Positions 4,149 to 16,821 of a stretch of DNA of 64,000 nucleotides are shown piece after piece. Source of the stretch: Candidatus Aminicenantota bacterium (GTDB lineage Bacteria > Acidobacteriota > Aminicenantia > UBA2199); the NCBI GenBank assembly GCA_029938635.1, contig JAOZUQ010000002.1, positions 1-64,000 on the forward strand. The letters run 5' to 3'. The position numbers were made by a program, and so were the translations under genes. The notes under the pieces were generated by a model. That model was given only the letters and a program-made list of their open reading frames with translations, made no database searches and was not told the origin of the DNA. How positions within the stretch are numbered: position 1 is the first letter of the stretch; each line of letters starts with the position of its first letter.

Positions 4149-7100
4149 CTAGAATGAGAAACGGATACCAAACATTCCTTTCCATCTGGATAGGAGCTGA
4201 TTGATAGTAAATCTTGCATCATCATCTGCTTTTCCCCAGAATTCCATGATAGGCAAACCTGTTGTTGCATCGGTGCCTTTCCATGTGAGAGGTGAATCAT
4301 CGAAAGAGATGTATTTGTAAACACCCCAGTCTTTGTTCAGCATGTTGAGGAAGTTTTCCACTGTGAAAGAGAACTGAAGTTTTTTACCCTTCATTGGTAA
4401 TGGAATATTCTGTGTTAATTTAACATCAACAAAATGTGACCATGGATCTCTGCTTGAGTTTCTCGGAACGATTTTCCCTCTGTACTTATCAAGTCCGTCA
4501 GGATCATCTTTCATATACTGGTCAAGATCTGCCCATGTTCCCTTTGAAAGGATAACATCAGCCGATGTAGCAGGAAGCCATACGGCATCATTCTGTACTC
4601 CGTCTCCATTTACATCGTTATAAAAACGTGTTGAATAGGGACGGCCTGATCTTCCGTTATAGAAGAAAGAGAATGAAGTCGGTGCTTTCTTGATAAAATT
4701 AAACTGTTTTGTCATTGCAAACATCAGCCTGTGACGTGTATCGTGAGGAGACCAGCTTAACTTAGGATTATTCGGATCGCTTGAAGTAACATTATACTTC
4801 CAGTTCGAGATAGCTCTTGATGAAGTTCCACCGAACAATGATTTTGCTTCACCATAAGTGTAAGCAGCATTGATCATATTTCCACCCCACAATTTCTGAA
4901 GTTGGAATGTCAATGAATACTCATAACCTTCGCTGGTGTTGCTGAGTTTTATCACATTGCCAAAATTAGGATCAACATAGTCTGGTGATCCGTATTTGTA
5001 TGTTCCGGGAGTACCGAAAAGAGGCCTTCCATCAAAGAAAGTTGCTCCTGTTTTTGCAACATTGATATTCTGGAATAAAACATCGTTTATGTTCTTCGTA
5101 TAAATCGCTTCAAAAGTTCCTGTGAATCCCCAGAACATTTTTTTATCAACAGCAACGTTCATCCTGAATACCTGAGGGAACTTGAAATTCTTGTCGATCA
5201 GGTTGATATCTCCTGAAATAATAGCTGAAGGATTATCAGGCTGGTTGAACGGATCTGTAATAAACCAGTCCGGGCTGTAGCTCTTATATCTGGCGATCTC
5301 TGTAGCAGTGTTTGAGAACTGGTTAGAGATCCATACGTAAGGAGCTCTTCCTGAGAATATCCCTAATCCACCACGGATCTGGATTGAGTTATCACCCTTC
5401 AGATCATAGTTGAATCCGAATCTGGGCGACCACATCATATTCCCGCCTGCATTCTGATCTGTCGGGATCCCGAAGGAAGCCTCAACCGCAGCATTAGCAG
5501 GAGGTGTAGAATTCATTAATGGAACATCTGCTCTTAAACCGTATGTCAGTGTGAGCTTATCGTTAATAGCCCATTCGTCACCAGCATAGAAGCCGAGTTG
5601 GGCAACATTAAATTCAGCCGGAGCATTCGGATTATCAGTAATTGAATAATACCTGTCATAATATGAAGGATTTCCAGCTTCGAAATCATCGATACTGTCA
5701 AAAGAATATTTTCCGAATTCTCTCTGAATAAAAACATTGTAAAAACCAAAGAACTCATTGTGAGTACCGAAAATATATGTATGTTTTCCTGAATACAATG
5801 TAAGGTTATCTGTAATTTCAATAAGATCCTGTTTGAGGTCATTTCTGACCCTGTATTCTTCTGAACCGAAGGTAAATGAAACTCCGGTCCCTGTGTCTAC
5901 AGTAATATTCGGGAAAGGATCTCCCATATATGTCGGGTTATCATGAATTGATGTTATGTTGAGGATGAACTCATTGAACAATTTTTCTGAAAAATTACTG
6001 TTCAATTGTAAGACAGTTGAGTTATTATTATTTTCATAAACCCTTCCTGCATTACCAAACCAGAGATTACGATTACTGGTCCTGCCAAGGCGTTCATGAG
6101 TTGATTTAACATAATTGTTACGGAGTGTTAACCTGTGCTTGTCGTTGATGTTCCAATCCAGCCTGAAGAATATCTTCTGACTTTCTGTCTCATTTGTAAC
6201 CTGTCCGTATCCACCCGGATCATAACCATATCCTTTGATAAGGGATATTAGTCTGTCGGCTTCTGCCTTATGTCCGAAGTCATAATCAGCTCCAGATCCG
6301 TCAATATAAAAATCTTCAGGTGTCTTTGCTAATGATTTTTCTGCATTAAAGAAGAAGAACAATTTATTCTTGATGATCGGGCCTCCCAGAGAAACACCAT
6401 AAGTGACATCTGAAAATTCTGCGAATTCATAATCTGAAGGGCCGTTACCTACCAGGCCTTCATTTCTCCCTTCATAATAAACTGATCCGTGAAATTCATT
6501 TGTTCCACTCTTGGTGATAACATTAATTCCACCACCGGTGAATCCGCCTTGACGGACATCATAAGGAGCGAGAACTATCTGGAATTCCTGAACAACGTCC
6601 AGTGAGATCGGTGTTGACTCTGCCTGTCCACCGGGTGTACCACTGAGATCAAGACCGAAAAGGTCATTGTTCTGGGCACCATCGATCTGAATGTTGTTGT
6701 ACTTTGAGTTCCTTCCTGCAGCGACAAACGAACCTGAATCCTCACCACTTGCAAATTGAGGAGCAAGACGGGTGAAATCACTCAATGTACGTGAGATAGT
6801 AGGAAGGTCCTCAATTACATTCTGAGCAACGTTTTGTGTTGCACCGGTTCTTGATTTGTTTATAATTTCCTCAGTTCCGGTTACAACTATTTCACCAGCA
6901 TCAACTGTTGCTAACTGAAGTGCAAAGTTTACCTGAGTTTTTTCACCCAGTTTTACAGTAAGGCTGGTCTTTTTTTCAGTCCGGAATCCTGTTATAGCTG
7001 CGGTAACCGTATAAGGCCCACCAGCTTTAACTGCCGGTATCAGATACATCCCACCAGTTCTGGAAACTACCATAAAAGTTGTCCCTGTAGGTACATGGAC

Positions 7101-7247
7101 AGCAGTAATAGCAACTCCTGGAAGAGGTGTTCCGTCGTTATTAACGACGACTCCGGTAATAGCACCTGTGGTAGCACTTTGTGCCACTATCATAGCAGGT
7201 AATATCAACAGGAGTAACATTTTTAAGAAAAGGCTTTTTCTCATCAA
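4149..7247 (-). CDS. TonB-dependent receptor with CarboxypepD_reg N-terminal domain
   Basis: Large outer-membrane receptor (1032 residues) for energy-dependent uptake of an unknown nutrient. A signal peptide covers residues 1-22 and ends AMIVAQS. Residues ~27-110 form a carboxypeptidase regulatory-like (Ig-like) domain (ITGVVVNNDGTPLPGVAI). The plug follows (~125-255), then a beta barrel that ends in an aromatic residue (GIRFSF), as outer-membrane barrels do. The Shine-Dalgarno AAGGAGGATTTG fixes the start. This Oar-like architecture is common in Acidobacteriota and Bacteroidota relatives. No SusD-like partner, TonB or ExbBD gene is adjacent. The substrate cannot be deduced from sequence. Confidence 0.9.
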   Translation of the reverse strand: MMRKSLFLKMLLLLILPAMIVAQSATTGAITGVVVNNDGTPLPGVAITAVHVPTGTTFMVVSRTGGMYLIPAVKAGGPYTVTAAITGFRTEKKTSLTVKLGEKTQVNFALQLATVDAGEIVVTGTEEIINKSRTGATQNVAQNVIEDLPTISRTLSDFTRLAPQFASGEDSGSFVAAGRNSKYNNIQIDGAQNNDLFGLDLSGTPGGQAESTPISLDVVQEFQIVLAPYDVRQGGFTGGGINVITKSGTNEFHGSVYYEGRNEGLVGNGPSDYEFAEFSDVTYGVSLGGPIIKNKLFFFFNAEKSLAKTPEDFYIDGSGADYDFGHKAEADRLISLIKGYGYDPGGYGQVTNETESQKIFFRLDWNINDKHRLTLRNNYVKSTHERLGRTSNRNLWFGNAGRVYENNNNSTVLQLNSNFSEKLFNEFILNITSIHDNPTYMGDPFPNITVDTGTGVSFTFGSEEYRVRNDLKQDLIEITDNLTLYSGKHTYIFGTHNEFFGFYNVFIQREFGKYSFDSIDDFEAGNPSYYDRYYSITDNPNAPAEFNVAQLGFYAGDEWAINDKLTLTYGLRADVPLMNSTPPANAAVEASFGIPTDQNAGGNMMWSPRFGFNYDLKGDNSIQIRGGLGIFSGRAPYVWISNQFSNTATEIARYKSYSPDWFITDPFNQPDNPSAIISGDINLIDKNFKFPQVFRMNVAVDKKMFWGFTGTFEAIYTKNINDVLFQNINVAKTGATFFDGRPLFGTPGTYKYGSPDYVDPNFGNVIKLSNTSEGYEYSLTFQLQKLWGGNMINAAYTYGEAKSLFGGTSSRAISNWKYNVTSSDPNNPKLSWSPHDTRHRLMFAMTKQFNFIKKAPTSFSFFYNGRSGRPYSTRFYNDVNGDGVQNDAVWLPATSADVILSKGTWADLDQYMKDDPDGLDKYRGKIVPRNSSRDPWSHFVDVKLTQNIPLPMKGKKLQFSFTVENFLNMLNKDWGVYKYISFDDSPLTWKGTDATTGLPIMEFWGKADDDARFTINQLLSRWKGMFGIRFSF

Positions 7248-9570: not shown

Positions 9571-10491
9571 ATGGAAACAACAATTGAATTGAACGGGCTG
9601 AATTTTAGTTATGGCGACATTAAAGCCGTCGACAATGTCAGCCTGAACACAAAAAAAGGCATTTACGGCCTGCTCGGCCCTAATGGCGCAGGTAAGACGA
9701 CTCTCATGAAGCTCATTCTGGGCTTTCTTAAAGCTCAGTCGGGAAATGGTAAGGTCCTCGGCTATGGTATTGAAGAGAATAGAAGAGAATTGAGAGAACA
9801 GGTCGGTTATATGTCAGAGAGCGATTCTCTCATCCCGGGAATGGATGCAGTGGACTTTACTTCATACCTCGGAAGGCTGAGCGGTATGCCTAAACAGGAA
9901 GCCATCAAGAGGGCTCACGAAGTACTTTATTATGTCGGGCTTGAAGAATCCAGGTATAGAAAGATCGAAACCTACTCATCCGGCATGATGCAGAGGCTTA
10001 AGCTCGCATCATCAATAGTCCACGATCCGGTCCTGCTCTTCCTTGATGAACCTACATCCGGAATGGACCCCGGTTCCCGGAAGGAAATGATCGAACTGAT
10101 CAATGATATCTCAAGAAAAGGGACAATGAGCATAATCATCTCATCTCATATTCTGCCCGATATTGAAGCCACATGTGAAGATGTGATAATCATGGATAAG
10201 GGGAAAATAATAGCCAATGAGAAGATCTCGGTCATTGCTTCCAAAGAGATTGATATCTTCGAAATCAAACTTGGCAGAGATACTTCCGGTTTTTTAAAAA
10301 AATTCAGAAAATTTAAATACGAGGAAGGGGACAGGGGTGTGATCCGGATGCAGCTCCCATCTGACTTTTCAACAAAAGAGATCTTTGATGCTGCACTTGA
10401 ATCCGGAACCCACATCAAACATTTCCTGAAGAGGAAATCCACACTGGAGGATACGTTCATGAATGCAATAGGAGAGAACGGTGCCGATTAG
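9571..10491 (+). CDS. ABC transporter ATP-binding protein (ABC-2 type), first pair
   Basis: ATPase subunit of an exporter-like ABC system. It contains Walker A GPNGAGKTT (~37), the Q-loop region around EQVGYMSES, the signature YSSGMMQR (~140), Walker B LLFLDEPTSGMD (~158) and the H-loop SSHIL (~195). A ~90-residue C-terminal extension follows. Such extensions are common in CcmA/NatA-like ATPases of ABC-2 systems. It opens a four-gene operon and overlaps the next gene by 11 nt. There is no convincing Shine-Dalgarno sequence at the ATG. The substrate is unknown. Confidence 0.88.
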   Translation: METTIELNGLNFSYGDIKAVDNVSLNTKKGIYGLLGPNGAGKTTLMKLILGFLKAQSGNGKVLGYGIEENRRELREQVGYMSESDSLIPGMDAVDFTSYLGRLSGMPKQEAIKRAHEVLYYVGLEESRYRKIETYSSGMMQRLKLASSIVHDPVLLFLDEPTSGMDPGSRKEMIELINDISRKGTMSIIISSHILPDIEATCEDVIIMDKGKIIANEKISVIASKEIDIFEIKLGRDTSGFLKKFRKFKYEEGDRGVIRMQLPSDFSTKEIFDAALESGTHIKHFLKRKSTLEDTFMNAIGENGAD

Positions 10492-11329
10492 AGAAGGCGG
10501 TTATTACAATTGGGAGGGTACCCTCAATAAATCAAAGATAAAATGGTTCCCTATATTTACTAACGGTATAAGGGCTGTTTATAAAAAAAGATTTTCAAAA
10601 CTGCTTTTCGCTACTACATCATCACTTTTCTTTATTTTTTTGATTGCACTTTATGTGTCATCAAAACCAGAACTTAAAATTTGGACAAAACTTGTTCAGA
10701 TGATATCTTCGGATGCTCTCCTTTTCAGGACCTATTATACTAATGGATTTCTTGTTTTCATGAGTGCCATGATCTCGGTTTTTGCAGGATCGGAGTTGAT
10801 ATCTAATGACCTTAAGCATAAATCAATCTCACTTTACCTTGCAAGGCCGTTAAGTAAACTTGATTATATAACCGGAAAATTTTCCATAATACTTTTCTAC
10901 CTTCTCATGTTCACACTTGTCCCGGGTATACTTCTTGTGATCTTTAAGGTGATTTTTACCGGAGATTTTTCTGCGGGAATTGCTTTATTGGCCAAATCAA
11001 TTATATTCCCGGTCGTCATATCCCTCTTCTGGTCATCCCTTATGCTAATGCTCTCATCACTGAGCGAGAACGGAAGGTTTGTAAAGATAATCTTCTTCGT
11101 TGCCTTCTTCATGAGCCAGATGATCGCAGGGATGTTCTGGGGAATATTCAGAAATGATAATTTCATGTATATCTCCATTGAGAAAAATATTCAACAATTC
11201 GGATCATTCGTGTTCGGTACAAAACTCGAATTCAGTGCCCCGGGGTGGATATCGGGTGCAATTCTCCTCGGGCTGACGGCTGTATTCCTGCTAGTCCTCT
11301 CGTACAGGCTCAAAAAGGTGGAGGTATAG
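10481..11329 (+). CDS. ABC-2 type transporter permease, first pair
   Basis: Inner-membrane permease (282 residues) with about six hydrophobic segments, starting around residue 43 (LLFATTSSLFFIFLIAL). A conserved cytoplasmic loop (AGSELISNDLKHKSISLYLARPLSKLDYITGK) is typical of ABC-2/NosY-like permeases. It starts with GTG after GGAGAGAACG and overlaps the end of the preceding ATPase, so it is translationally coupled. It should pair with one of the two ATPases in the operon. Confidence 0.82.
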   Translation: MPIREGGYYNWEGTLNKSKIKWFPIFTNGIRAVYKKRFSKLLFATTSSLFFIFLIALYVSSKPELKIWTKLVQMISSDALLFRTYYTNGFLVFMSAMISVFAGSELISNDLKHKSISLYLARPLSKLDYITGKFSIILFYLLMFTLVPGILLVIFKVIFTGDFSAGIALLAKSIIFPVVISLFWSSLMLMLSSLSENGRFVKIIFFVAFFMSQMIAGMFWGIFRNDNFMYISIEKNIQQFGSFVFGTKLEFSAPGWISGAILLGLTAVFLLVLSYRLKKVEV

Positions 11330-11330
11330 A

Positions 11331-12257
11331 ATGGGTACGGTCATAAAAGGGGAAAACCTTTCAAAATGGTATGGAAATGTTCTCGGGCTGAGTGAAATAT
11401 CTGTAGATATCTCAAAAGGGATCCAGGGATTACTTGGGCCGAATGGCGCAGGCAAATCAACTTTCCTGAAGATCCTGACAGGGCAATTAAAACCGAATAT
11501 CGGCGAGATCAAAATATTTGACGAACCGGTGTTCAATAATCATGAGTTGTTCCACAGGATTGGATATTGCCCTGAATTTGATGCTTACTATCGTGAAGTT
11601 ACAGGTTGGGAATTTATCCGGTTCAAATCTGCCCTGTTCGGCTATAGCAAAAAAGAGACTGATCAGAGAGCTCTTACTGCTCTTGAAAAAGTGGGCCTGA
11701 CAGACAGTAAAGATAGAAAAATAACTGCATACAGCCTCGGAATGAGACAAAGGCTTAAGTTTGCATCGAGTATAATAAATGACTCTGACCTGCTTATCCT
11801 TGATGAGCCATTGAGAGGAGTTGACCCCCTCTGGCGGATCAGGATAATTAAGATGTTGAAAGAATTCGAGGAGGAGGGCAGGACAATTATAGTTTCCTCA
11901 CATATTCTATCTGAGATCGAGGCAATGACAAACAATGTGATCCTCATCCATCAGGGAAAAATATTTGCACATGGTGATATTCAGGAAATAAGAGATCTCA
12001 TCGGTTCTCATCCTCACAAGGTCTCAGTCGTTTGTGACGATGCCCGTGGACTTGCAAAAAAAATGATCGGCGATGATCTTCTCCTGAACATACAGTTTCT
12101 GGACAATGAACAAAAAGTGATATTTGAGACAGACAAGAGGGATAAATTCTTCGATACGCTTACTTATACAATAAGCAATTCGACAATCAACGTCAGTGAA
12201 ATAACTTCTCCTGATGATAATCTCCAATCTGTTTTTGACTATCTAATCGGAAGGTAA
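11331..12257 (+). CDS. ABC transporter ATP-binding protein (ABC-2 type), second pair
   Basis: Second ATPase of the operon (308 residues), clearly homologous to the first. Walker A is GPNGAGKST (~38), the signature YSLGMRQR (~142), Walker B LLILDEPLRGVDP (~158) and the H-loop SSHIL (~193). The ribosome-binding site AGGTGGAGGTATAG precedes the ATG. As in the first copy, a C-terminal domain of ~95 residues follows. The two ATPases probably arose by duplication and may form a heterodimer or serve separate permeases. Confidence 0.88.
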   Translation: MGTVIKGENLSKWYGNVLGLSEISVDISKGIQGLLGPNGAGKSTFLKILTGQLKPNIGEIKIFDEPVFNNHELFHRIGYCPEFDAYYREVTGWEFIRFKSALFGYSKKETDQRALTALEKVGLTDSKDRKITAYSLGMRQRLKFASSIINDSDLLILDEPLRGVDPLWRIRIIKMLKEFEEEGRTIIVSSHILSEIEAMTNNVILIHQGKIFAHGDIQEIRDLIGSHPHKVSVVCDDARGLAKKMIGDDLLLNIQFLDNEQKVIFETDKRDKFFDTLTYTISNSTINVSEITSPDDNLQSVFDYLIGR

Positions 12258-12259
12258 AA

Positions 12260-13051
12260 ATGGTCAATTTAAATAAAATTAAAATAATCTACGGTTTTTT
12301 TGTAAAGACCCTCCTGAGATCTAAAAAAACAAAATTCTTTATTCTGTTCTCGCTCGTTCCGCTTCTGATATTTTTGATCATTAACGGACTTAAGTTGATT
12401 TATCACGACAACCTGTTAGCAGGGAGTGATTTTTTTAAAAACGGGGGGATGCCTTTCTTTTTTCAGTTTTACATCCAATTGATCTCACTCCTTTTCGGTG
12501 CCGCAGTTATAAGTGATGAAATCGACAGCAAAACCCTTATCTATCTGAACACATCCCCGGTTTCAAAATTTTCTATTTTAGGCGGGAAATTTTCTGCATA
12601 TCTTTCTGTATCCTTTCTCAGTTTCGCAATCGGATCAACAATTCTATATGTTATGACCCACTTCAAAGGAATTCTCACCACGAAAAGTTTAGCGACTCTT
12701 CTTCAGCTTCAGTTTACCGGACTGATCGCCATTATTGCATACAGTTCACTTTTCCTCCTGTTTGGTGTTTCACTAAAAAAATCAACTATTATAGGATTGG
12801 TATTTATATTCGGATGGGAAACAATTGCACAAATATTACCCGGAACCGCTCAGAAGTTAACAATCTTTTTCTATCTCAATTCCCTGTCGCCAATAAGGAT
12901 ACCTAAAGAGAAAGGGATACTCAATATAAGTGTTATTCAGCCGGGTTATGGAGAAGCGCTGATAACCCTTCTGATCTTCTCTGCAATATTCTTTGCCGCG
13001 TCAGTATATGTTTTCAAAAAGAGAGAATACCTGCTTGCTGATCATACCTGA
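12260..13051 (+). CDS. ABC-2 type transporter permease, second pair
   Basis: Last gene of the ABC operon, 263 residues with about six membrane segments. It shares the permease layout of its upstream paralogue, including the loop FGAAVISDEIDSKTLIYLNTSPVSKFSILGGK after the second helix. It starts 2 nt after the ATPase stop and ends 3 nt before the end of the convergent propeller gene, leaving no room for a terminator. Its role is export of an unknown substrate or a membrane-homeostasis function. Confidence 0.82.
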   Translation: MVNLNKIKIIYGFFVKTLLRSKKTKFFILFSLVPLLIFLIINGLKLIYHDNLLAGSDFFKNGGMPFFFQFYIQLISLLFGAAVISDEIDSKTLIYLNTSPVSKFSILGGKFSAYLSVSFLSFAIGSTILYVMTHFKGILTTKSLATLLQLQFTGLIAIIAYSSLFLLFGVSLKKSTIIGLVFIFGWETIAQILPGTAQKLTIFFYLNSLSPIRIPKEKGILNISVIQPGYGEALITLLIFSAIFFAASVYVFKKREYLLADHT

Positions 13052-13053
13052 TC

Positions 13054-15852
13054 TCAAAATGAACTTCCGAGCCTGAAATAAAAAACCGGAGATTTTTCCG
13101 GATTGATCCCATAGCCAACGCCACCGGTTACTACATATCTTAAGGGACCAAGATACAATACCAGATTAAGTTCTCCACCGGCCGAAATTGCAGGATCAAA
13201 TTCCATCCTTTCTTTCCACACCTGGCCTGAATCAAAAAAAAGTGAAACATAAAGACTTTCGATACTTTTAAAAATCAGGAAAGATCTTTCGATTTTTTTT
13301 AAAATAAACCTGAGTTCAAAGTTTAGTGAAAAACCGGTAGTCCCGCTGAAGTATCCGGATGGGTACCCTCTGATAAGTCCGAACAATTTTTCACCTGAAT
13401 AACTCTGTTCATTACCAGCGCTGATTCCACCCATATAAAAAGTGCGCCTCCCCTCTCCCCATGACTCAGCAAAAGCCAGTCTCATCGCCAGAGTATTGAG
13501 TTTGGAAAAAGAGATGAACTGGGAATATTCAAGAGTAAAAACATTAGAATTATAGCGGCTTCCGAAAAGCTCCATCTCCTTCGAATATACGGCATTAAAA
13601 TTAAAACCATTATTTTCTGAAATTGAGTTGTAATAGATATCAGTGGAATTAATTGTTATACCGGTCCTTATTCCATTATGAACGGTATTGATATTCTCTA
13701 AGGTATCCTGGAATTCATCCACACCTTTTTCAAAATGGATATCTGTATAAAGTGAAAGAACACTGTCAGTATTCTTAAATAACGGGAAATTGAATGAAGC
13801 AGTAAACTTTTCCGCATTCTGGAAGAATTCCCCTTTCTCATCACTTCTGTTCAAATCAGAAAACTTTGTAAATTTCAGATCAAGTTCGCCTGGAAATCCG
13901 TTGAAAATATAATTCAAATAATAATTAGACCTCCCGCTTATCAGTCCTGCAAGATACTTTGCTTTGAAATAGTGACGGTGCAATGAATCAAATCCGGAGG
14001 CCATGATCCCCGCCTGAAGTTCATTCCCTCCTTCCCGGAAAGTAAGAGTAAAATATTTCGGGGAAAAATCTCTTAAGGCTTTATATTTGCTACCGACAGT
14101 ATCTGATATTACTTCAACTTCAGCTTCATCTTCTTCCTTCATCCCGGAGAATGAGTAGATTTTTAATTCCCGTTCCATCTTTCCAAGGTCGATCTTCATC
14201 AGATCATAACCTTTCCCGGTAAGAATAGGGGCAATTATCATATTTCCACCAATTACATCAAAATATTTGAATGACGAAAGTTTTTCAGAATTATAAACCT
14301 TCATCTCCCCCAACTTTACATTAAATGATACCAGGCCGAATCTCTTTTTAAGTGATGTCACGAACATCAGCTCATCATTATTTTTCCAGACAGGGGAAAA
14401 AGCCCTCTCACCACCATACTCAACAAGTCCTTTCAGGGCTCCTCTCAAATTGAAAACACCTATCTTCCAATTACCACTCCCGGTCTTGACAGATGCCGAA
14501 ATATATCCGGAATCAGGAGAAATAGAGAGTCCCGATAAAAGACTGAACCGCTTTGAAATAATATTTATTTTCGGATGACCGATCTCGAAATATGAGAGAT
14601 ATGATCCGAATTTGTCCCTTTTTATACAATAGATCCTGTTTTTCACTCTTACAGGATATGTGAGCCTTTCTCCTCTCGTTATCCTTGACACCTTTTTTTT
14701 ATCAAGGTCAAAACTATAGATATCAGCAAATTTATAATATTTCCGGAACATATCCACAGCTGCAAAATAGATTAATTTTTTTTCCTTGAAATAGCTTATC
14801 CCTTTCACAGATTTTTTTCTGAAAAGGAGAGACGGTTTTTTATCTGATGATCTTAGGATATATACTCCGGGATAGCTTTTGAAATTTTCACTGAAAAAAA
14901 CAACACTTCCGTCTGAAATATATAAAGGAAATTTTTTAACAAAACCTGTATCTGTTAATGTTCGGGGAAAGCTGACGTCTTTCTTCCCGATCTCAATTTC
15001 AAGATCTTTCCAGAAATCCTTGATTTCCTTACCGAACACCATCTTGAACCTCTCTGACATAGACATGAACCTGAGGTTGAACAAACCCCTGAATCTGAAC
15101 GGCAGCGGGTGGGAGGTATAATTTTTTACAAATTCTCTGATCTTATTTTTGTTCACGCTTGAGGAGAGAAATTTTACAAGACCGGTTCCGAATATGTTAG
15201 GAGAAAAAGGTCCCGGCCAATTTGATAATTTACTTTTCAAAGATCCAAGAGGTGGAAATTTTCCCCATTTTACAACTTTTTTTAATATCAGCTCGAATTC
15301 CGGCGAATGGAATCTTGTATTACTATTTGAATTGATCTCCTCATAAGCGGAAATTCCCGTTAAAGCCCACCCCGGAATAAACAGGGTCGGGAAGAAGATG
15401 GAATTTATTCCAAAATATTTCCTGAAGAACCTTAACGTTTTTGAGCCCTGGTTATAAACAAATATCCTGTTCAAGCCATGTCTTATTACATCTCTGATAT
15501 GATCAGTATAGTTGCCGAACAAAGAGTGGGGCTCCGGCGGATACAATGATATCCTGATCCGGTTATAAGGGAAAAAAGTGGAGTCCTCGTCAAAGCAATC
15601 TGATGAATCGTGAAGAAGTATCCTTACCCTGCCGTTAATCTCACACTTCCAGAAATCTTTAATAATGGGGTAAAGTTCCTCAGCAACAAGCAGAGAATAA
15701 TCTGCCTGCTCTTTGAAATCCTCAGGATAAATTATAGTAAATCTACCATGGGATATCTCTTTCCAATTGATCTCCGGATGGTATTTAGGTTGAAGAACTT
15801 CTATAGCTAAAATAGTAAAAATTATAAAAAAAGTTATACTTTTCAGATTCAA
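13054..15852 (-). CDS. Outer-membrane beta-propeller/surface-antigen protein with degenerate metallopeptidase-like domain
   Basis: A 932-residue exported protein with a hydrophobic N-terminus (residues 4-18). Residues ~25-240 look like the gluzincin-type 'peptidase MA-like' domain found before propellers in this family, including the segment FFPTLFIPGWALTGISAYEE. The usual HExxH is replaced by HGLNR (in VIRHGLNRIF), so zinc catalysis is unlikely. Residues ~320-590 read as WD40/TolB-like propeller repeats. Residues ~600-932 resemble a BamA/D15-type barrel ending in phenylalanine (RLGSSF). The start is TTG with no Shine-Dalgarno sequence. It follows trxB on the same strand after 36 nt. Function is unknown, probably surface binding or assembly. 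Confidence 0.7.
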   Translation of the reverse strand: MNLKSITFFIIFTILAIEVLQPKYHPEINWKEISHGRFTIIYPEDFKEQADYSLLVAEELYPIIKDFWKCEINGRVRILLHDSSDCFDEDSTFFPYNRIRISLYPPEPHSLFGNYTDHIRDVIRHGLNRIFVYNQGSKTLRFFRKYFGINSIFFPTLFIPGWALTGISAYEEINSNSNTRFHSPEFELILKKVVKWGKFPPLGSLKSKLSNWPGPFSPNIFGTGLVKFLSSSVNKNKIREFVKNYTSHPLPFRFRGLFNLRFMSMSERFKMVFGKEIKDFWKDLEIEIGKKDVSFPRTLTDTGFVKKFPLYISDGSVVFFSENFKSYPGVYILRSSDKKPSLLFRKKSVKGISYFKEKKLIYFAAVDMFRKYYKFADIYSFDLDKKKVSRITRGERLTYPVRVKNRIYCIKRDKFGSYLSYFEIGHPKINIISKRFSLLSGLSISPDSGYISASVKTGSGNWKIGVFNLRGALKGLVEYGGERAFSPVWKNNDELMFVTSLKKRFGLVSFNVKLGEMKVYNSEKLSSFKYFDVIGGNMIIAPILTGKGYDLMKIDLGKMERELKIYSFSGMKEEDEAEVEVISDTVGSKYKALRDFSPKYFTLTFREGGNELQAGIMASGFDSLHRHYFKAKYLAGLISGRSNYYLNYIFNGFPGELDLKFTKFSDLNRSDEKGEFFQNAEKFTASFNFPLFKNTDSVLSLYTDIHFEKGVDEFQDTLENINTVHNGIRTGITINSTDIYYNSISENNGFNFNAVYSKEMELFGSRYNSNVFTLEYSQFISFSKLNTLAMRLAFAESWGEGRRTFYMGGISAGNEQSYSGEKLFGLIRGYPSGYFSGTTGFSLNFELRFILKKIERSFLIFKSIESLYVSLFFDSGQVWKERMEFDPAISAGGELNLVLYLGPLRYVVTGGVGYGINPEKSPVFYFRLGSSF

Positions 15853-15888: not shown

Positions 15889-16821
15889 TTATTCTTTCTC
15901 CTCGAGATATCTTTCACAATCCAGAGCTGCCTGACATCCGCTCCCGGCTGCGGTAATTGCCTGCCTGTATGAGGAATCCTGAACATCTCCGCATGCAAAA
16001 ACTCCGGGAATGTTAGTATATGTTATTTTGTTCTTATCCTGTGAAGTAACAATATATCCTTTTTTATCCGTATCTATATGATCCTTAAATAATTTTGTAC
16101 TTGGAGTATGCCCGATCGCTACGAATATACCATCAAGGTCTATGTCCCTTTTTTCCCCTGTCTTTGTATCCTTGACCCTGATCCCGGTAACTCTCTCTTC
16201 ACCCAGCATCTCTTCAGGGACAGCATTGAGGACAAATTCAACCTTAATGTTTTTCTCAGCTTTTTCAACCATGATCTTGGAAGCACGGAACTCATCACGC
16301 CGGTGGATTATATATACTTTTTCTGCAAACTTTGTGAGAAAAGTACCCTCCTCCATCGCGCTGTCGCCTCCGCCGATCACACAGACAACTTTACCTTTGA
16401 AAAAGAAACCATCACATGTTGCACATGCACTGACCCCTCTCCCCATCAGCCTTGTTTCACTTTCAAGACCCAGTAGATTGGCAGTTGCCCCGGTTGAAAT
16501 TATAACGGCTTTAGCTTCATACCCGTTCTCATCTTCCCATACTATTTTCCTGTCTCCGGAAAGCTCCACTTTTGTAACATCTGCGGTCAGGAATTCAGTT
16601 CCGAACTTTTCAGCCTGAGCTCTCAGTTCAGCTATCAGGTCCGGGCCTGATATCCCCTCTCTGAATCCTGGGAAATTTTCCACTTCAGTTGTGATCATAA
16701 GCTGCCCTCCTGCACCATAACCTTCGATCACAAGTGGTTTAAGATTTGCTCTTGCAGCATATATAGCGGCAGTAAGGCCTGCCGGGCCCGAGCCGATTAT
16801 TATAACGTCTCTTTTTTCCAT
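15889..16821 (-). CDS. trxB: Thioredoxin-disulfide reductase
   Basis: Low-molecular-weight flavoprotein (310 residues) that reduces thioredoxin-like proteins with NADPH. The FAD-binding motif GSGPAGLTAAIYAAR is at the N-terminus, the redox motif CATC is at ~135 (SACATCDGFFFKG), the NADPH-binding GGGDSAMEEG lies at ~155, and the C-terminal FAD motif GVFACGDVQD is at ~278. All are intact. AAGGAGAAATGA precedes the ATG. It may recycle the glutaredoxin-like protein encoded at 1.4-1.7 kb, but this is inference. Confidence 0.95.
   Translation of the reverse strand: MEKRDVIIIGSGPAGLTAAIYAARANLKPLVIEGYGAGGQLMITTEVENFPGFREGISGPDLIAELRAQAEKFGTEFLTADVTKVELSGDRKIVWEDENGYEAKAVIISTGATANLLGLESETRLMGRGVSACATCDGFFFKGKVVCVIGGGDSAMEEGTFLTKFAEKVYIIHRRDEFRASKIMVEKAEKNIKVEFVLNAVPEEMLGEERVTGIRVKDTKTGEKRDIDLDGIFVAIGHTPSTKLFKDHIDTDKKGYIVTSQDKNKITYTNIPGVFACGDVQDSSYRQAITAAGSGCQAALDCERYLEEKE

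Follow-up and report, generated by a model that had tools for sequence, protein, structure and literature searches.

The gene at the centre of this study encodes a protein of 932 aa, read from a putative TTG start on the reverse strand of the window (the whole stretch of 64,000 nucleotides of Candidatus Aminicenantota DNA that was analysed), and its parts and landmark residues are listed in Table 1. Close copies of the protein come from Candidatus Aminicenantes MAGs. Two tandem pairs of an ABC ATPase and an ABC-2 permease (window 9571-13051) are convergent with the gene, and one such pair also adjoins it in genus g6 (L019). A second large outer-membrane protein is encoded nearby (window 4149-7247, reverse strand), this being a barrel protein of 1032 aa with a CarboxypepD_reg domain and OMP_b-brl_4.

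Table 1. Positions in the window of the gene, its predicted domains, the altered active-site residues and the upstream neighbour.
Feature	Residues	Window position	Strand	Basis
Whole gene: pseudo-gluzincin, beta-propeller and Omp85 barrel		13054..15852	-	ORF; model
Probable export signal (N-terminal hydrophobic segment)	1-21	15790..15852	-	Sequence; putative TTG start abuts stop codon
Predicted gluzincin-fold N-terminal domain, dead by residues	22-292	14977..15789	-	N-domain model; Foldseek
Beta-propeller (TolB/PD40-like)	300-585	14098..14955	-	Full model; TolB 7mx5 match; PD40 in relative L027
16-strand Omp85-type barrel with C-terminal Phe	590-932	13057..14085	-	Model; Foldseek; weak BamA match (NCBIfam); Omp85 match in paralogue
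RGY motif of Omp85 loop 6 (strands 11-12)	828-830	13363..13371	-	Model; alignment
HGLNR replacing HExxH; catalytic Glu and second zinc His gone	125-129	15466..15480	-	Alignment
Thr (both sisters have Ala); Glu of EG, the third zinc ligand, gone	165	15358..15360	-	Alignment
Asn (one sister genome has Ser); probable transition-state Tyr, invariant in the family, gone	219	15196..15198	-	Alignment
Asp (intact orthologues all have Asn; nearly all intact relatives have Asn or His)	88	15589..15591	-	Alignment
trxB (thioredoxin-reductase-like), directly upstream; marks the orthologous locus in six genera		15889..16821	-	Synteny

Sequence libraries alone leave this protein unnamed: Pfam has no match for it, and NCBIfam offers only a weak match to BamA, at the C-terminus. 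A profile search of PDB sequences, run with the N-domain as query, gave no meaningful match. The full-length AlphaFold2 model, built with 26 homologues (pLDDT 84.4, pTM 0.86), consists of a mixed alpha/beta N-domain, a propeller (residues ∼300-585) and a 16-strand barrel (residues ∼590-932), and in Foldseek it is matched by the BamA, TamA, Sam50 and FhaC barrels, with a best E of 5e-9, and also by TolB. Modelled alone (pLDDT 84.1, pTM 0.83), the N-domain is matched in the PDB first by LTA4 hydrolase and M1 aminopeptidases and then by M9 collagenases (best E 3.2e-4, probability 1.00). Chain B of 7edx, from TFIID, is among these matches, and is presumably TAF2, a non-catalytic M1 relative. Judged by its model, the N-domain has a gluzincin fold (clan MA-like), of the kind found in the M1 enzymes (LTA4 hydrolase and the aminopeptidases), the M9 collagenases and Pfam Peptidase_MA_2 and BSP. 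Relatives of the protein keep HExxH, Glu and Tyr, and weak matches to BSP and Peptidase_MA_2 are seen among relatives. Both models and the structure comparison by Foldseek thus bear out the original prediction, made from the letters of this DNA, of a gluzincin-like N-domain followed by an intact propeller and an intact barrel.

The C-terminal domain has the features of an Omp85 protein, as evidenced by a 16-strand barrel like that of BamA and TamA, a loop-6 motif of the (V/I)RG(F/Y) type (IRGY at residues 827-830) and an aromatic C-terminus (Phe932), with the motif and the terminal Phe kept in most orthologues. The curated Pfam cut-off for Omp85, which is a library criterion and not a biological one, is passed by the paralogue on contig C45 (25.1 vs the cut-off of 24 bits); the orthologue L013 falls below it and the protein under study has no match. 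In Omp85 proteins the segment that precedes strand 1 is periplasmic, as established for BamA and TamA, and the modelled barrel carries its long RGY-bearing loop between strands 11 and 12, as in loop 6 of BamA. Given this topology, the N-domain and propeller are most likely periplasmic and not surface-displayed, and the suggestion that the domain is displayed at the outer membrane is probably wrong if the cell surface was meant.

No POTRA domains precede the barrel, so the protein is not BamA proper, and a separate BamA-like ORF with five POTRA domains is present in the same genome, on C30. What does precede the barrel is a propeller, as seen in the model, the TolB match and the PD40 matches of relatives. 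This is the arrangement of the WD40-Omp85 subfamily of the Omp85/TpsB superfamily, in which a TolB-like propeller lies N-terminal to an Omp85 barrel without POTRA domains, and which has been likened to a fusion of BamA and BamB (Heinz and Lithgow, 2014; PMC4104836). Unlike the WD40-Omp85 proteins in the available part of that survey, for which only a WD40 propeller is mentioned (PMC4104836), the protein in this study adds a gluzincin domain ahead of the propeller. It is best read as belonging to the WD40-Omp85 class by its architecture, as a pseudopeptidase variant whose added domain was not found described in the literature searched. No papers on peptidase-Omp85 fusions, or on Omp85 proteins of Aminicenantes, were found in that literature either. 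PF00149 is, we presume, a metallophosphatase domain, unrelated to gluzincins. It is PF00149 that the "Metallo" class carries in the available part of the Omp85 survey (PMC4104836).

The alignment agrees with the expectation that the HExxH of the N-domain has become HGLNR, with the catalytic Glu and second zinc His gone. HGLNR is common to the three genomes of the genus (the present one and two sisters), against a complete site in 174 of 182 related N-domains, which rules out chance as well as a sequencing error. Where orthologues read HELTH...W..EG.A....Y..G, the protein reads HGLNR...WALTG...N, and Glu126, His129, Glu165 and Tyr219 are all lost. The claim that the family landmarks are kept, for which the motif FFPTLFIPGWALTGISAYEE (residues 153-172) had been quoted, stands only in part, as His125 and Gly166 do stay, but EG has become TG within that very motif, and Tyr219, further along, has become Asn. 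An active gluzincin has an HExxH with two zinc His and a catalytic Glu, a Glu on the following helix as third ligand and a Tyr near the site; unlike such metallopeptidases, this protein has none of the three complete, and it has no family match in Pfam. Positions 165 and 219 appear to be drifting within the genus, with EG read as TG in the present genome and AG in both sisters, and residue 219 as Asn in the present genome and as Asn and Ser in the two sisters. In M1 enzymes, a catalytic Tyr lies at the place that probably matches residue 219. The zinc ligands of LTA4H are His295, His299 and Glu318, and Tyr383 is used (PMC8954237). Because the order and spacing of His, Glu and Tyr agree, Tyr219 is likely the counterpart of Tyr383 in LTA4H.

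Metal-dependent activity could conceivably persist through a rebuilt site, for instance one made of His118, Asp121 and His125 (residues 118-125, window 15478-15501, reverse strand), which share a helix and do not vary within the genus; His118 and Asp121 are common to its three genomes, with position 118 being Trp in 19 of 20 intact orthologues. Such a site is, however, highly improbable, as no acidic residue has taken over from Glu165, a position now drifting (Thr or Ala), as is residue 219 (Asn or Ser), and a cation would be repelled by the Arg and Lys that occupy the place of the second zinc His. A motif scan of the whole protein found neither HExxH nor HxxEH anywhere, which also rules out an HExxH shifted to another place. 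Another HExxH-like or metal site, or an N-terminal region of some other fold, had been named as results that would count against the original prediction; the scan returned no such motif, and Foldseek placed the region with the gluzincins.

The proposed survey of relatives for loss or retention of HExxH covered 182 related N-domains gathered within Acidobacteriota, each judged intact or not by its residues. H-E-H-E-G is kept in 174 of them, and the eight exceptions are HGLNR in the three genomes of this genus, HELTR twice in genus g6, HEMTL in G004, KELSK in G003 and HEGRR in a paralogue from G137. Seven of the eight are orthologues of the gene in this study, spread over four lineages, and all seven are without the second His and without the Tyr. 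The paralogue (L197, G137:C144) belongs to another family and has a separate, lighter loss, in which the second zinc His is gone with Tyr and EG kept. Tyr219 is present in every readable intact N-domain (one being masked at that stretch), and among 48 positions that are invariant in the intact orthologues, only His129 and Tyr219 are altered in all four dead lineages. This joint loss is what a loss of catalysis predicts, and from its co-loss with the second zinc His, Tyr219 is likely a catalytic residue. An N-domain match at E ≤ 1e-8 was found in 132 of 396 sampled Acidobacteriota genomes, mostly in ORFs of 850-1100 aa. The peptidase-propeller-Omp85 family is widespread and apparently undescribed, the full architecture having been checked in part of these matches.

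Six genera of the family have the gene directly downstream of the trxB-like gene, with an intact site in g7, g8 and g9 and a dead one in g1, g3 and g6. This shared locus rules out a paralogue mistaken for an orthologue and indicates that the dead form is the same gene and not a side copy. Intact orthologues (e.g., G021, G015) share both the locus and the architecture, but have a complete HExxH..EG..Y. At least three changes of state are needed on a maximum-likelihood tree inferred with the active-site columns removed, and a single dead clade is not rejected by the AU test (p 0.20). The dead lineages sit on long branches, which makes their placement in the tree uncertain, and long branches are seen in the intact groups too. 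The residues lost differ between the lineages, however, and this suggests that the dead lineages decayed at least partly separately.

Comparison of the gene with the sister copy whose reading frame is intact gave the lowest dN/dS, 0.029, at residues 118-180; the N-domain as a whole came to 0.086, the barrel to 0.13 and the propeller to 0.14. With dS close to saturation, these values are rough. Branch lengths on a fixed tree show the N-domain evolving more slowly than either of the other two domains in the tips of the genus, and its branches in the dead lineages are for the most part no longer than those two domains predict. Faster evolution of the N-domain in dead lineages is absent, except on the short stem of g1 and G003 and as a mild excess in G003. 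The dead N-domain is under strong purifying selection and is being kept, something that fits a repurposed module; no ligand-binding signature was singled out among the three genomes of the genus.

A gene drifting to loss, with the dead site as an early step of decay, is very doubtful in the light of these values. The long branches of the dead lineages would agree with decay, as would the copy in the sister genome G002, which has several frameshifts in its 3′ half (L001, G002:C425, at about 2200-2960, small insertions), with the neighbouring ABC and trxB genes intact. The frames are, however, intact in two genomes that are about one synonymous change per site apart, the long branches are shared with intact groups, and substitutions in the G002 copy are still mostly at third positions, so that its breaks are recent or an assembly fault. 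The frameshifts may be either such a fault or a sign that the gene can be lost.

Selection of this kind might also act on a domain that is a passive structural remnant, needed only for the folding of the propeller and barrel and binding nothing. Among the conserved non-catalytic residues of the domain, Gly, Pro and hydrophobic ones prevail, and constraint is similar across the whole protein, both of which agree with a remnant, but the stretch around the dead-site helix (residues 118-180) is the most constrained part measured, and the N-domain is slower than the propeller and barrel in the genus tips. These two comparisons involve few substitutions and are suggestive, leaving a passive remnant unlikely, though still to be reckoned with.

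The genome also encodes two paralogues, G000:C38 (HEGKH..EG) and G000:C45 (HELGH..EG), which have the same architecture as the protein in this study, but a complete HExxH..EG..Y. Their presence would allow the dead protein to regulate or compete with them, by binding their substrates or by pairing with them, and pseudoenzymes do sometimes regulate active cousins, according to the available part of a review (PMC11266112). Both paralogues are nevertheless on other contigs, are quite diverged and show no sign of an operon shared with the gene, and a regulatory role of this sort is doubtful. As in the metallopeptidase pseudopeptidases covered by the available part of that review, the fold is retained, catalysis is gone and selection keeps the protein, but, unlike in the known cases there (PMC11266112), the dead domain here is joined to a propeller and to a barrel of the outer membrane. 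A text search of the same review found no outer-membrane or gluzincin pseudopeptidase. Pseudopeptidases in general are already well known, and the protein is no new kind.

Taken as a whole, the protein is probably a genus-specific pseudopeptidase form of an Acidobacteriota outer-membrane family, with its N-domain kept as a non-catalytic module. The family, common in Acidobacteriota, puts a zinc-peptidase domain of the gluzincin type ahead of a TolB-like propeller and an Omp85 barrel. The barrel would lie in the outer membrane, with the two other domains facing the periplasm, where BamA has its POTRA domains. In most relatives the N-domain carries a complete zinc-peptidase site. With the catalytic Glu, the catalytic-type Tyr and two of the zinc ligands gone, the N-domain in this genus should bind no catalytic zinc and cleave no peptides, as far as can be judged from its residues. 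We infer that it most likely binds polypeptides or partners at the mouth of the barrel, or else holds the propeller and barrel together, and the proteolytic role may be left to the two intact paralogues.

A broader proposal, which is put forward tentatively and may well not hold, is that a single orthologous group of periplasmic proteases, anchored in the outer membrane, has more than once abandoned catalysis in favour of non-catalytic polypeptide binding. If this is true, related bacteria would offer the same barrel-anchored protein at the same locus in both a live and a dead version, and comparing the two would allow the effect of cleavage to be separated from that of binding. The family itself, with a match in a third of the sampled Acidobacteriota genomes, may be a so far unstudied class of periplasmic proteases tethered to the outer membrane.
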